Assembly (NCBI GenBank): GCA_015488775.1
Contig: WFNF01000015.1
Span: 1-41,037 of the forward strand
DNA: 41,037 nucleotides
Direction of reading: 5' to 3'
Source: Helicobacteraceae bacterium
GTDB taxonomy: Bacteria; Campylobacterota; Campylobacteria; Campylobacterales; Sulfurimonadaceae
The position numbers and the translations under genes are program-made. Below the pieces are notes generated by a model that saw nothing but the letters and a program-made list of their open reading frames with translations, searched no databases and was not told the origin of the DNA. Of this stretch, positions 9,196 through 14,433 are shown piece after piece. Each line of letters opens with the position of its first letter. Positions within the stretch are counted from its first letter, which is position 1.

Positions 9196-9837
9196 GTGTT
9201 TATTAGGTATATAAGAGCAGATAAAGAAACAAGTGATATAAATACACAGCTTAAAAATACATCTTTATATTTAGCAAAAGATAATAAATCTTTTTGTGAT
9301 GAATATATAGATAAGTCTAACTCTTTACAAAAACTTGATCTACGTGAAAATATCTTAGATTTTTTTAGAAGTTATCATAAATCAACCTTGGTAATAAATG
9401 AGATTGAGGTTTTAAGCACTAATGTTGATGATTTAGTATATATATTTGCTTGTTTATTTAACAAAGATATAAGTGTAATTATATTGTCACAAAACATCAC
9501 TATAGATAAAAATTCATCATCATTACTGCTTTTAGAGAGTATAAACTCTCAACAAAGTGTTAAACTAGAGAAAAATTCTATAGGAAGACCAAAAGGTAGC
9601 AAATCTTTTTCAAAATTTGATATCTATTATGATAAAATCATCAATATGTTAAAAGATGCTAAAAGTGTTAGTGATATCGCAAGAGAGTTAAATATATCAA
9701 GAAGTTCTCTCAATGATTATATTAATTCAAGAGAATTAAAAGATATATATAAAATAACATACAAAGAGTTTGGAGAGTCTATTGATCAAGATATTGAGTA
9801 TATAGAGTGTCCAATTGAAAAAAATAAGGAGATATAA
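9196..9837 (+). CDS. Resolvase-like DNA-binding protein without catalytic serine
   Basis: 213 residues, starting at GTG 9196 behind AAAGG. Residues 1-115 resemble the N-terminal fold of small serine recombinases (MFIRYIRADKETSDINTQL compares with the family Y.RVS..Q). However, the position of the nucleophilic serine reads RAD, so recombinase activity is unlikely. Residues 130-180 hold the resolvase-type linker and helix-turn-helix: IGRPKGSKSFSKFDIYYDKI, then SVSDIARELNISRSSLNDYI. The gene ends just before ccoG (1 nt gap), so the two are cotranscribed. My reading is a recombinase-derived regulator, possibly of ccoG; this is inference. Confidence 0.7.
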   Translation: MFIRYIRADKETSDINTQLKNTSLYLAKDNKSFCDEYIDKSNSLQKLDLRENILDFFRSYHKSTLVINEIEVLSTNVDDLVYIFACLFNKDISVIILSQNITIDKNSSSLLLLESINSQQSVKLEKNSIGRPKGSKSFSKFDIYYDKIINMLKDAKSVSDIARELNISRSSLNDYINSRELKDIYKITYKEFGESIDQDIEYIECPIEKNKEI

Positions 9838-9838
9838 A

Positions 9839-11269
9839 ATGTCTAAAAAAATACCCTACTTAAAGGATTGGTTGCCATACGCTAAAAAAAGACACATTAT
9901 GTATATGATTGCAACTATTATATCTTTAAGTGTACCATGGATAGTTATAAATGGAAATCATCTGTTTTTACTTAGTTTTGAAAAACTAAAACTTCACTTA
10001 CTATTTGTTCAGTTTGATATGCAACAGCTATATCTTATGCCATTTTTACTAATGATACTTTTTTTAGGTATATTTGGGATGACTGTTTTAGGTGGTCGTG
10101 TTTTTTGTGGATGGTTTTGTCCTCAGACAATTTTTAGGGTTGTTTATAGAGATTTTATAGAGACTAAACTTTTAGGTATGAGAAGAAGTGTCAAAAATAA
10201 ACAAAAAGATATAGATTATTCTAAAAATGGAAATAAGGTCAAAAAAGTTATTGCTATACTTATTTGGACTTTTCTTGCATTCCTAGCTGCATCTGATTTG
10301 ATGTGGTTTTTTGTACCACCTGAAGATTTTATGGTTTATATTATGAATCCATCAGAACATACTGTACTTTTTGGGACAATCTTTGTTACAGTTGCTTTTT
10401 TAGTTTATGATATTATCTTTTTACAAGAAAACTTTTGTGTATATGTTTGTCCTTACTCTAGGGTTCAATCAGTTTTATATGATGATGACACAATTATGGC
10501 TATATATAATCCACATCGTGGTGGTGAGATTTATAATGACAACAAAGAGAAAGTCCATAACAAAACAAAAACATTGCTTGAAGTTGAACCACAAGCAGAG
10601 TGTACAACATGTGAAAGTTGTGTTACTGTATGTCCTACACATATTGATATACGCCAAGGTCTTCAGTTGGAGTGTATTAACTGTTTAGAGTGTGTTGATG
10701 CTTGTACAGTTGTTATGGGTAAGCTTAATAAACCATCATTAGTTATGTGGTCAAGTGAAAAAGAGACTTTATACCAAAAAGGTAAAACACATTATCTTAG
10801 ACCAAAAATCATAGGTTACGGTGTTATCTTACTTCTATTGATGGTTATATTACTAAAAATGGGTGGAGATAAAGAGAGAATGCTTCTTAATGTAAATAAA
10901 GAATCAAGACTATACTCTATATCAAACAAAAACAACAAGCATCATGTAGAAAACGCTTATATCTTTTTACTTCAAAATACTGAAAATGAAAAACATAAGT
11001 TTTATTTTGATTTAATAGTTCCAAAAGAGTATGAAGGCAAGATTAAAATTAAAAAGCCAACAGAGCCTTTTAGTGCAACACCAAATGTTAGAAAGAAGAA
11101 AATTGTTGTTTTATACGCTGATGATGTTTTAGTAAAAAGTGATAGAAAAGATACTATCATACCTGTAACGATTAAAGCTTATGCTATAGATAATAAAAAA
11201 GAGATAGTAGTAACAAGAAAAACTACTTTTACATATCCTAAATATGATGTTCTAATGAAACATAAATAA
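9839..11269 (+). CDS. ccoG: Cytochrome c oxidase accessory protein CcoG (FixG/RdxA)
   Basis: Membrane ferredoxin-type protein that reduces copper for assembly of the cbb3 oxidase, as known for the family. Seen: several transmembrane segments in residues 20-215; cysteine blocks GGRVFCGWFCPQTIFR and ENFCVYVCPYSRVQ; two 4Fe-4S clusters in CTTCESCVTVCP and CINCLECVDAC; another transmembrane segment near 340; and an extracytoplasmic immunoglobulin-like C-terminus. The frame opens earlier, but ATG 9839 with AAGGAG upstream is clearly the start. 476 residues, normal length. ccoNOQP is not in the window; the cotranscribed partner is the resolvase-like gene. Confidence 0.93.
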   Translation: MSKKIPYLKDWLPYAKKRHIMYMIATIISLSVPWIVINGNHLFLLSFEKLKLHLLFVQFDMQQLYLMPFLLMILFLGIFGMTVLGGRVFCGWFCPQTIFRVVYRDFIETKLLGMRRSVKNKQKDIDYSKNGNKVKKVIAILIWTFLAFLAASDLMWFFVPPEDFMVYIMNPSEHTVLFGTIFVTVAFLVYDIIFLQENFCVYVCPYSRVQSVLYDDDTIMAIYNPHRGGEIYNDNKEKVHNKTKTLLEVEPQAECTTCESCVTVCPTHIDIRQGLQLECINCLECVDACTVVMGKLNKPSLVMWSSEKETLYQKGKTHYLRPKIIGYGVILLLLMVILLKMGGDKERMLLNVNKESRLYSISNKNNKHHVENAYIFLLQNTENEKHKFYFDLIVPKEYEGKIKIKKPTEPFSATPNVRKKKIVVLYADDVLVKSDRKDTIIPVTIKAYAIDNKKEIVVTRKTTFTYPKYDVLMKHK

Positions 11270-11477: not shown

Positions 11478-11930
11478 CTAATCTTCTTTACTCATTTTTG
11501 GTAAAAAATTATCTATAGATAATTTTCCTGAACCAAAAGATATTAATGTAAATAACATCAATATATAGTATAAAGGTATCTCATACCCATTATCTCCAGA
11601 ACTAAAGCCGTTTGGAAGATGAACTGTAACTATTGCAACTATCATCACAACAATTAAAGGTATAGATATAAGTCTAGTAAACAGACCTAAAGTTAAAAGT
11701 ACAACACCAGCTAACTCAGTTGATGCAGCCATGTAAGCTTGAAATGTTGGAGCAAAAAGCCCCATCGACTCAAACCAAGATGCTACTGCAGATATATCAT
11801 CCCATTTTCTCATAGCAGGCTCATAAAACCCATAAGCTAAAATGAGTCTTAAAGACAAAAGAGCTACATCTTGTAGTCTTTTAGTAACAGGCTCTATAAG
11901 AGCACAAACTTTTGTTAGTTGACATTGCAT
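11478..11930 (-). CDS. DoxX-family membrane protein
   Basis: 150 residues with four hydrophobic helices. The DoxX pattern is seen in LSLRLILAYGFYEPAMRKW, ASTELAGVVLLTLGLFTRL and a C-terminal YYILMLFTLISFGSGKLSID. ATG 11930 has AAGGA 7 nt upstream and lies 10 nt behind the stop of the KCG-repeat peptide gene, so the two form an operon. DoxX proteins recur in bufferin/HvfA-type gene clusters, where a DoxX (HvfE) accompanies the precursor peptide and the MNIO enzymes. That supports a shared metal- or thiol-stress role; the biochemical function of these DoxX proteins is not established. Confidence 0.85.
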   Translation of the reverse strand: MQCQLTKVCALIEPVTKRLQDVALLSLRLILAYGFYEPAMRKWDDISAVASWFESMGLFAPTFQAYMAASTELAGVVLLTLGLFTRLISIPLIVVMIVAIVTVHLPNGFSSGDNGYEIPLYYILMLFTLISFGSGKLSIDNFLPKMSKED

Positions 11931-11940
11931 ATTTTATCCT

Positions 11941-12201
11941 TTATTTAGATCCACATTTACCTGCGCCACATTTTGACTTAGATTTTTTAGCATCACCACA
12001 TTTAGCAGCTTTTTTCTCACCACCACATTTACCAGCACCACATTTTGATGATTTTTTTTCATCTTTTTTAGCATTTCCACATTTACCAGCGCCACATTTA
12101 CCAGCACCACATTTTCCACCCTCAGCTAAAAGTGAAGTTGAACCTACACCCATCATTAGTGCAGCACCAAGTAGTAGTGCAGATATTTTAAGTTTTCTCA
12201 T
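11941..12201 (-). CDS. KCG-repeat secreted peptide, HvfA-like RiPP precursor candidate
   Basis: 86 residues. Residues 1-26 are a clear Sec signal peptide (MRKLKISALLLGAALMMGVG, ending SLLA-EG). The rest is low-complexity Gly/Lys/Ala/Ser with eight cysteines, every one in a KCG triplet, arranged as GKCGAGKCGAGKCG, KCGAGKCGG, KCGD and KCGAGKCGSK. In HvfA-type precursors the repeated EGKCG cysteines are converted by an MNIO enzyme (DUF692) with a DUF2063 partner into copper-binding oxazolone/thioamide groups. The motif, signal peptide and DoxX neighbour match that class, but no DUF692 or DUF2063 gene lies here. It could also bind metal unmodified. AAGGAAA precedes ATG 12201. Confidence 0.75.
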   Translation of the reverse strand: MRKLKISALLLGAALMMGVGSTSLLAEGGKCGAGKCGAGKCGNAKKDEKKSSKCGAGKCGGEKKAAKCGDAKKSKSKCGAGKCGSK

Positions 12202-12245
12202 TTGATTTTCCTTTTTTTGGCTTTATGCCTTTAAATATATTGAGC

Positions 12246-12275
12246 ATTGTAGCTATAAACTTTACAACTTGTCAG
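12246..12275 (-). promoter_or_regulatory. Sigma-70-type promoter of the KCG-peptide/DoxX operon
   Basis: On the minus strand CTGACA (12270-12275), an 18-bp spacer and TACAAT (12246-12251), about 45 nt before the start codon. Each hexamer matches 5 of 6 consensus bases, unusually good for this AT-rich genome. Confidence 0.5.
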
Positions 12276-12622: not shown

Positions 12623-12943
12623 ATGGCAAAATATATTGAATTAACTGGTTCTAACATAGAAGACACTATTAAAGAGGGTGTTGCATTAGTTGACTTTTGG
12701 GCACCATGGTGTGGTCCTTGTCGTATGATCGCTCCAATTATTGAAGAGCTATCTGAAGAATTTGCTGGTAAAGCTACAATTTGTAAAGTAAATACAGATG
12801 AAGAACAAGACATAGCTGTAAAATATGGAATCCGTTCTATCCCAACTCTTATCTTCTTTAAAGATGGTGAGCCAGTTGAAACTATGGTAGGTGCTGCGTC
12901 TAAAGAAGCATTTGCTGAAAAGTTAAACGCTTTATTAGCGTAA
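12623..12943 (+). CDS. trxA: Thioredoxin
   Basis: Cytosolic disulfide reductase, recharged by TrxB encoded two genes downstream. 106 residues. Active site WAPWCGPCRM with Cys30 and Cys33; cis-proline loop SIPTLIFF; buried Asp in LVDFW. AGGAAG lies 4 nt before ATG 12623. It is first in the trxA - thioredoxin-like - trxB operon, with a terminator-like hairpin just behind it, suggesting trxA is made in excess. Confidence 0.97.
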   Translation: MAKYIELTGSNIEDTIKEGVALVDFWAPWCGPCRMIAPIIEELSEEFAGKATICKVNTDEEQDIAVKYGIRSIPTLIFFKDGEPVETMVGAASKEAFAEKLNALLA

Positions 12944-13491: not shown

Positions 13492-14433
13492 ATGTTAGAT
13501 TTAGCAATTATAGGTGGAGGTCCTGCTGGACTTACTGCTGGACTTTACGCTACTCGTGGTGGCTTAGATAACGTAGTTATGTATGAAAAAGGTATGCCTG
13601 GTGGTCAAATTACTCAAAGTAGTGAGATTGAAAACTATCCTGGTGTAACTGGAGATATAACAGGAATGGATTTGATGATTCCGTGGCCAGAGCAGTGTCA
13701 AAAATTTGGTCTTAAACATGATATGGTTGAGGTTAAAAAAGTTGAACTTCTTGATGATGGGACTTTTAACATCCATAGAGGTGATGGTAAGGTTGATCAA
13801 GCTTTAAGTGTAGTTGTTGGTACTGGTTCAACTCCAAAATTTGTTGGTTTTGCTGGTGAAAATGAGTATTTTGGTAGAGGTGTTTCAACTTGTGCTACTT
13901 GTGATGGATTTTTCTATAAAGGGAAAGATGTTAGCGTTATAGGTGGTGGTGATACTGCTTTAGAGGAAGCTCTTTACCTTGCAAAAATTTGTAAAAAAGT
14001 TTATTTAGTACATAGACGTGACACTTTTAGAGCAAGTCCAGCAACTGTTGAACGCATTAAAAATACTGAAAATATTGAGCTTATTTTAAACTCTTCTCCA
14101 AAAGAGGTTTATGGTGACGCGATGGGTGTAACTGGACTTAAGGTAACTACAGCAGATGGTGAAAGAGATATAGATGCACCTGGTTGTTTTATATTTGTTG
14201 GTAGAAACATAAATAACGAAGTTCTTTTAAAAGATGATGGTAGTTTTATATGTGATTTAAATGATCAAGGTGAAGTTATAGTAAACCTTAGTATGAAAAC
14301 ATCTGTTCCTGGTCTTTTTGCAACAGGTGATATGCGTATAGAAGCACCAAAACAAGTTGTAAGTGCAGCAGGTGATGGAGCAGTAGCTGGAATCCAAGCT
14401 ATACATTATGTTGATAAAAAACTAAACTCTTAG
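13492..14433 (+). CDS. trxB: Thioredoxin reductase
   Basis: FAD/NADPH enzyme that reduces thioredoxin. 313 residues. Seen: FAD-binding IIGGGPAGLTAGLYA at the N-terminus, redox-active CATCDG (Cys134, Cys137), NADPH-binding VIGGGDTALEEALYL, and the C-terminal FAD motif GLFATGDMRIEAPKQVVSAA. AAAGGA lies before ATG 13492. It is last in the operon and followed by a hairpin at 14442. Confidence 0.97.
   Translation: MLDLAIIGGGPAGLTAGLYATRGGLDNVVMYEKGMPGGQITQSSEIENYPGVTGDITGMDLMIPWPEQCQKFGLKHDMVEVKKVELLDDGTFNIHRGDGKVDQALSVVVGTGSTPKFVGFAGENEYFGRGVSTCATCDGFFYKGKDVSVIGGGDTALEEALYLAKICKKVYLVHRRDTFRASPATVERIKNTENIELILNSSPKEVYGDAMGVTGLKVTTADGERDIDAPGCFIFVGRNINNEVLLKDDGSFICDLNDQGEVIVNLSMKTSVPGLFATGDMRIEAPKQVVSAAGDGAVAGIQAIHYVDKKLNS

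Follow-up and report, generated by a model that had tools for sequence, protein, structure and literature searches.

The closest described counterparts of the locus analysed here are HvfA and HvfX of the hvf (oxazolin) operon and the Buf_EGKCG/captophorin precursors, with which it shares a small Sec-exported peptide of repeated KCG motifs and an adjacent DoxX protein of the HvfX family. The hvf/captophorin clusters also encode an MNIO and a DUF2063 protein, and in captophorins each Cys is converted to a 5-thiooxazole with a loss of 4 Da. Metallothionein-like ligands and metal-binding Cys tails, which present repeated unmodified thiols on a low-complexity peptide, are also similar but differ in that the KCG peptide is exported, is paired with a membrane DoxX protein and is evolutionarily linked to RiPP precursors. 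Bufferins (i.e. Buf1 and Buf2) are likewise exported, Cys-containing peptides that act in metal stress and have DoxX partners, and fusions of bufferins to metal proteins, namely MerC and cytochrome c, have been described (PMC12452194). Buf_EGKCG precursors were reported in 2583 closed genomes, only 67 of which were without an MNIO, and it was suggested that unlinked precursors are perhaps modified from elsewhere or unmodified (Antoine et al. 2025; PMC12452194). No Campylobacter-type names occur in the main text of that article, and a search of the literature on DoxX in Campylobacterota and on the function of HvfX yielded no report of MNIO-less systems.

The window is a 41,037-nucleotide stretch of DNA (contig WFNF01000015.1) from a Helicobacteraceae bacterium related to sulfur-oxidising bacteria. 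Three features of the window, all on the minus strand, form the locus:

11941 to 12201, minus strand: gene for an exported 86-aa peptide with KCG repeats (8 Cys, NF050137 match)
11478 to 11930, minus strand: gene for an HvfX-family DoxX membrane protein (150 aa, Pfam and NCBIfam matches)
12246 to 12275, minus strand: weak site resembling a promoter (CTGACA-18-TACAAT), upstream of the gene for the peptide

Both open reading frames exist as described in the original prediction, i.e. an exported peptide with eight cysteines, all in KCG, encoded 10 nt from a DoxX gene. In the translated peptide these cysteines are arranged as four KCGAGKCG pairs; among 200,000 shuffles of the mature part, the KCG count reached at most five (15 times) and never eight. 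Inspection identified an N-terminal Sec-type signal peptide, MRKLKISALLLGAALMMGVGSTSLLA, which is probably cleaved. The peptide scored 29.6 bits against the NCBIfam family KCGExKCG_twice (NF050137, HvfA family; cut-off 19.5). Whereas Buf_EGKCG precursors carry EGKCG, the window peptide carries GKCGAGKCG, and exact EGKCG is absent from it with GKCG, SKCG or AKCG in its place. The DoxX protein matched the NCBIfam HvfX family (NF050144) with 122.6 bits, above the equivalog cut-off of 80, and Pfam DoxX with an E-value of 1.2e-18. These matches bear out the predicted HvfA/HvfX-like pair, and the modifying enzymes are, as noted before, absent from the operon: unlike the hvf/captophorin clusters, it has neither MNIO nor DUF2063. 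The ribosome-binding site of the DoxX gene (AAAGGA) overlaps the stop region of the peptide gene, and the short spacing suggests that the two genes are cotranscribed. A near-consensus promoter had also been proposed. The sequence is present at 12275-12246 but promoter-like sites are no more frequent in the operon region than in shuffled sequence (6 found, 9.3 expected), so that the site is no evidence of a promoter; a scan of the same region for promoters and terminators gave nothing beyond chance. An open reading frame antisense to the peptide gene (11912-12205, plus strand) was taken as a mirror of the repeat and rejected as a gene. The operon is convergent with a gene for CcoG, a cbb3 oxidase assembly protein (9815-11269, plus strand), and on its other side lie thioredoxin-like (12623-12943) and thioredoxin-reductase-like (13492-14433) genes, both on the plus strand.

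The source genome (2.7 Mb in 170 contigs, 95% complete) was searched for DUF692/DUF2063 genes and other KCG peptides, as the original prediction had proposed. No MNIO was found near the window operon and exactly one in the genome, on contig C22 (PF05114, 1.4e-94). The gene order on C22 is a short KCG peptide of its own, the MNIO and then a DUF2063/HvfC gene (DUF2063, 1e-06). The signal peptide of this KCG lipopeptide ends in a lipobox-like sequence, and no HvfX is encoded at C22. The MNIO (329 bits) and the DUF2063 protein (73.7 bits) fell under the HvfB and HvfC equivalog cut-offs of 360 and 142, respectively. Behind the C22 operon lies a gene for an MBL-fold hydrolase (L019:2851-3714), and a similar one occurs near HvfX/KCG genes in MNIO-less genomes (L112:6733-7602). 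Two HvfX genes were detected in the source genome, one in the window and one on contig C1. The C1 gene adjoins a gene for a Glu_synthase-type protein; in many loci HvfX is followed by a gene for a protein of 583 aa that has a hydrophobic stretch at its N-terminus and a domain resembling glutamate synthase (e.g. L018:8115-9866, which is the C1 locus, and L106:3594-5345).

The distribution of the three components was examined in 228 genomes (18 genera) of the source organism's family; most genomes compared are drafts. KCG counts refer to DNA patterns, confirmed as reading frames in the fetched loci only, and absence of MNIO means no PF05114 match. The pattern KCGxGKCG was present in 147 of the 228 genomes and in 16 of the 18 genera, and a reversed-pattern control gave no hit in this set. 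HvfX was above cut-off in 107 genomes and MNIO was detected in 16, with DUF2063 above cut-off in MNIO genomes only. Among MNIO-less genomes, 93 of 94 with HvfX had KCG and 80 of 118 without HvfX lacked it (table 93/38/1/80; Fisher P = 1.6e-27, uncorrected for relatedness). Hence, HvfX tracks KCG and not MNIO in this family. One genus (g16) follows the opposite rule, with KCG in six genomes that are exactly its six MNIO genomes. Assembly gaps were rejected as the cause of MNIO absence, as KCG and HvfX occurred without MNIO in 18 closed or near-closed (1–2 contigs) family genomes and positive controls were detected. These controls came from a collection of named genomes that overlaps the family set, so that the counts are not additive: a genome-wide search found MNIO in none of 43 genomes having the KCG-HvfX pair and no MNIO nearby, including cultured Sulfurimonas indica NW8N, and in all four genomes with an MNIO in the locus. 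At the level of the order, a hand count from tables gave 41 KCG genomes outside the family, 14 with and 27 without MNIO; 17 of the latter belong to one family and six to one genus. A KCG gene also adjoins HvfX in Bacteroidota drafts (L181, L191, L198, L206 and L224) whose genomes have no PF05114 match. In MNIO-less genomes, the HvfX/KCG genes are repeatedly accompanied by those for a GMC flavoprotein and for a Gluconate_2-dh3-like protein of the Tat type (L105, L106, L109–L113, L120 and others). The lineage-wide absence of MNIO is a departure from the published rule, under which MNIO-less EGKCG precursors are rare, and the EGKCG-based model of that study (PMC12452194) may miss the KCG peptides of the source family.

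A tree of 137 HvfX proteins (146 columns), in which many forks are unresolved, placed the window HvfX on a long branch in a ten-member clade with support of 96/94. In the other nine members a KCG gene adjoins HvfX and no MNIO is present at the locus. Eight of the nine are in genomes that were searched and are MNIO-free, five of these genomes being closed (G036, G220, G225, G226 and G227), while the ninth (L148) is represented by its locus only. The window pair differs from hvf in having close relatives in genomes wholly without MNIO. The sister group of the clade contains HvfX proteins from MNIO operons.

KCG stretches were also found on other proteins. On C71 of the source genome (L017:7200-8786), an ArsR-family gene, a gene for a MerTP fusion, a mercuric transporter, with a KCG tail (above the NF033556 cut-off) and a zf_CopZ protein gene lie in a row. 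On C104 (L014:7344-9089), a cytochrome c carries a C-terminal KCG tail and its gene is followed after 3 nt by one for an SO_0444-family Cu/Zn exporter (391 bits over a cut-off of 300), with a divergent ArsR-family gene present. C144 (L015:102-3244) encodes the C-terminus of an RND pump, an HMA protein, a KCG lipoprotein, a response regulator and a histidine kinase, in this order; L120 likewise has a KCG lipoprotein of this family behind an RND pump. In relatives, KCG tails are carried by a copper chaperone, PCu(A)C, and by HMA-like proteins, the latter identified by eye. Bufferins differ in having another Cys pattern, the tails described here being on MerTP, PCu(A)C, DsbD_2, HMA and cytochrome c proteins of mostly MNIO-less genomes. 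The location of KCG tails on or near metal systems points to soft-metal binding by their thiols, and the KCG stretch appears to be a metal-binding module that this group of Campylobacterota reuses. A copper role, part of the original prediction, gains support from the genomic context, i.e. the MerTP, Cu/Zn exporter and RND pump systems that KCG stretches accompany.

The explanation that we consider fairly probable is that kcg-hvfX is a two-gene unit in which KCG thiols bind a soft metal and whose core function is independent of MNIO. The Sec pathway would deliver the peptide to the periplasm, and there its thiols would take up a soft metal, for which Cu(I) is the likeliest candidate. HvfX would be the standing membrane partner of the peptide, with an action that we can only guess to be thiol anchoring or redox upkeep. 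The unit belongs to a Campylobacterota lineage that keeps KCG peptides and HvfX without MNIO, a retention which argues against dependence of the core function on the formation of thiooxazoles. As the pair usually resides in genomes of the source family without the modifying enzyme, the peptide probably works unmodified, and modification is probably not needed for the function of the window peptide. The C22 MNIO/HvfC pair could, in the source genome, modify it additionally. A broader proposition, on which we are evenly divided, is that in Campylobacterota unmodified KCG serves as an MNIO-independent soft-metal tag, in free peptides and in C-terminal tails of Cu/Hg proteins, and that HvfX acts as the peptide's partner and not as a RiPP maturation factor.

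Of the two options originally offered, enzymes acting from another locus or an unmodified peptide, the former is made possible in the source genome by the MNIO/DUF2063 pair on a separate contig and the latter is favoured by the relatives. The RiPP reading was to fall if the genome had no MNIO and the cysteines were unmodified; C22 carries an MNIO, but in the family this pair normally occurs without MNIO and the RiPP reading is therefore not needed to explain its retention. A split RiPP of the oxazolin/captophorin type, with the C22 MNIO/HvfC modifying the window peptide in trans in the cytoplasm, a thiooxazole copper peptide being exported and HvfX serving both loci, is a possibility that we regard as rather unlikely. 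It would account for the finding that C22 has MNIO, HvfC and a KCG lipopeptide yet no HvfX, and it fits with reports that HvfBC uses the signal peptide as leader (PMC13419390) and that the related FonBC enzyme accepts most Ala substitutions as well as alterations ahead of the core (PMC13097082). An LLLGAAL-type signal motif is common to the window peptide, the C22 peptide and all 13 MNIO-adjacent precursors. This motif is, however, not diagnostic of modification, because 35 of 80 MNIO-less peptides keep it (11 of 180 in the background), and it was rejected as proof of leader function. MKCG occurs more often in proteins without MNIO (57/90) than in those with MNIO (1/13; P = 0.00016), and the window peptide, like most MNIO-adjacent precursors, has neither MKCG nor any Cys outside KCG. 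Since its clade-mates L103 and L152, from MNIO-less genomes, also lack MKCG, this absence is not decisive for the window peptide and motif composition does not separate modified from unmodified peptides. Modification in trans is further disfavoured by the MNIO-less state of the rest of the window HvfX clade, by the persistence of KCG-HvfX in the 18 closed or near-closed MNIO-less genomes and by the C22 MNIO already having its own lipobox-type precursor.

MNIO-less genomes may contain an MNIO too divergent for PF05114 or another modifying enzyme. The candidate for a non-MNIO enzyme acting on the peptide is the GMC flavoprotein together with its subunit, a Gluconate_2-dh3-like protein of the Tat type, homologues of which were present in 39 and 28, respectively, of 75 mostly MNIO-less loci (Pfam identities). 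Neither gene lies close to the window operon, or close to HvfX in those clade loci that were read, and known GMC enzymes oxidise alcohols and have no known tie to Cys, making this proposal very improbable. No single conserved substitute enzyme emerged from the MNIO-less loci, in which only HvfX is near-universal. Another scheme, which we judge improbable though a little less so, is that the peptide carries not metal but sulfur (i.e. persulfides or sulfane sulfur) and that DoxX is its redox partner. Such a role would suit sulfur-oxidising hosts: KCG genomes without MNIO are found mainly in the groups to which Sulfurimonas and Sulfurovum belong, and the window DoxX weakly matches the TQO subunit DoxD. 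Against this scheme, the systems that bear KCG tails or lie beside them handle metals (MerTP, PCu(A)C, HMA, Cu/Zn exporter, RND pump and ArsR).

KCG peptides and HvfX owe their names, modified RiPP metallophore and RiPP maturation protein, to their company with MNIO. As most carriers of the KCG-HvfX pair in this study have no MNIO, automatic annotation would be misleading for most of these species. The role of HvfX becomes testable in such species without MNIO. Related peptides with and without MNIO also provide a natural comparison for the contribution of thiooxazole formation to copper binding, and one that bears on the order of events, i.e. whether the thiol peptide preceded modification or survived its loss.

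A further KCG stretch of the source genome is carried by a DsbD_2 membrane protein encoded on C159. Orthologues of DsbD_2 without KCG often end in CC (L234, L237, L239 and L247), as if CC and KCG tails were interchangeable metal ligands.
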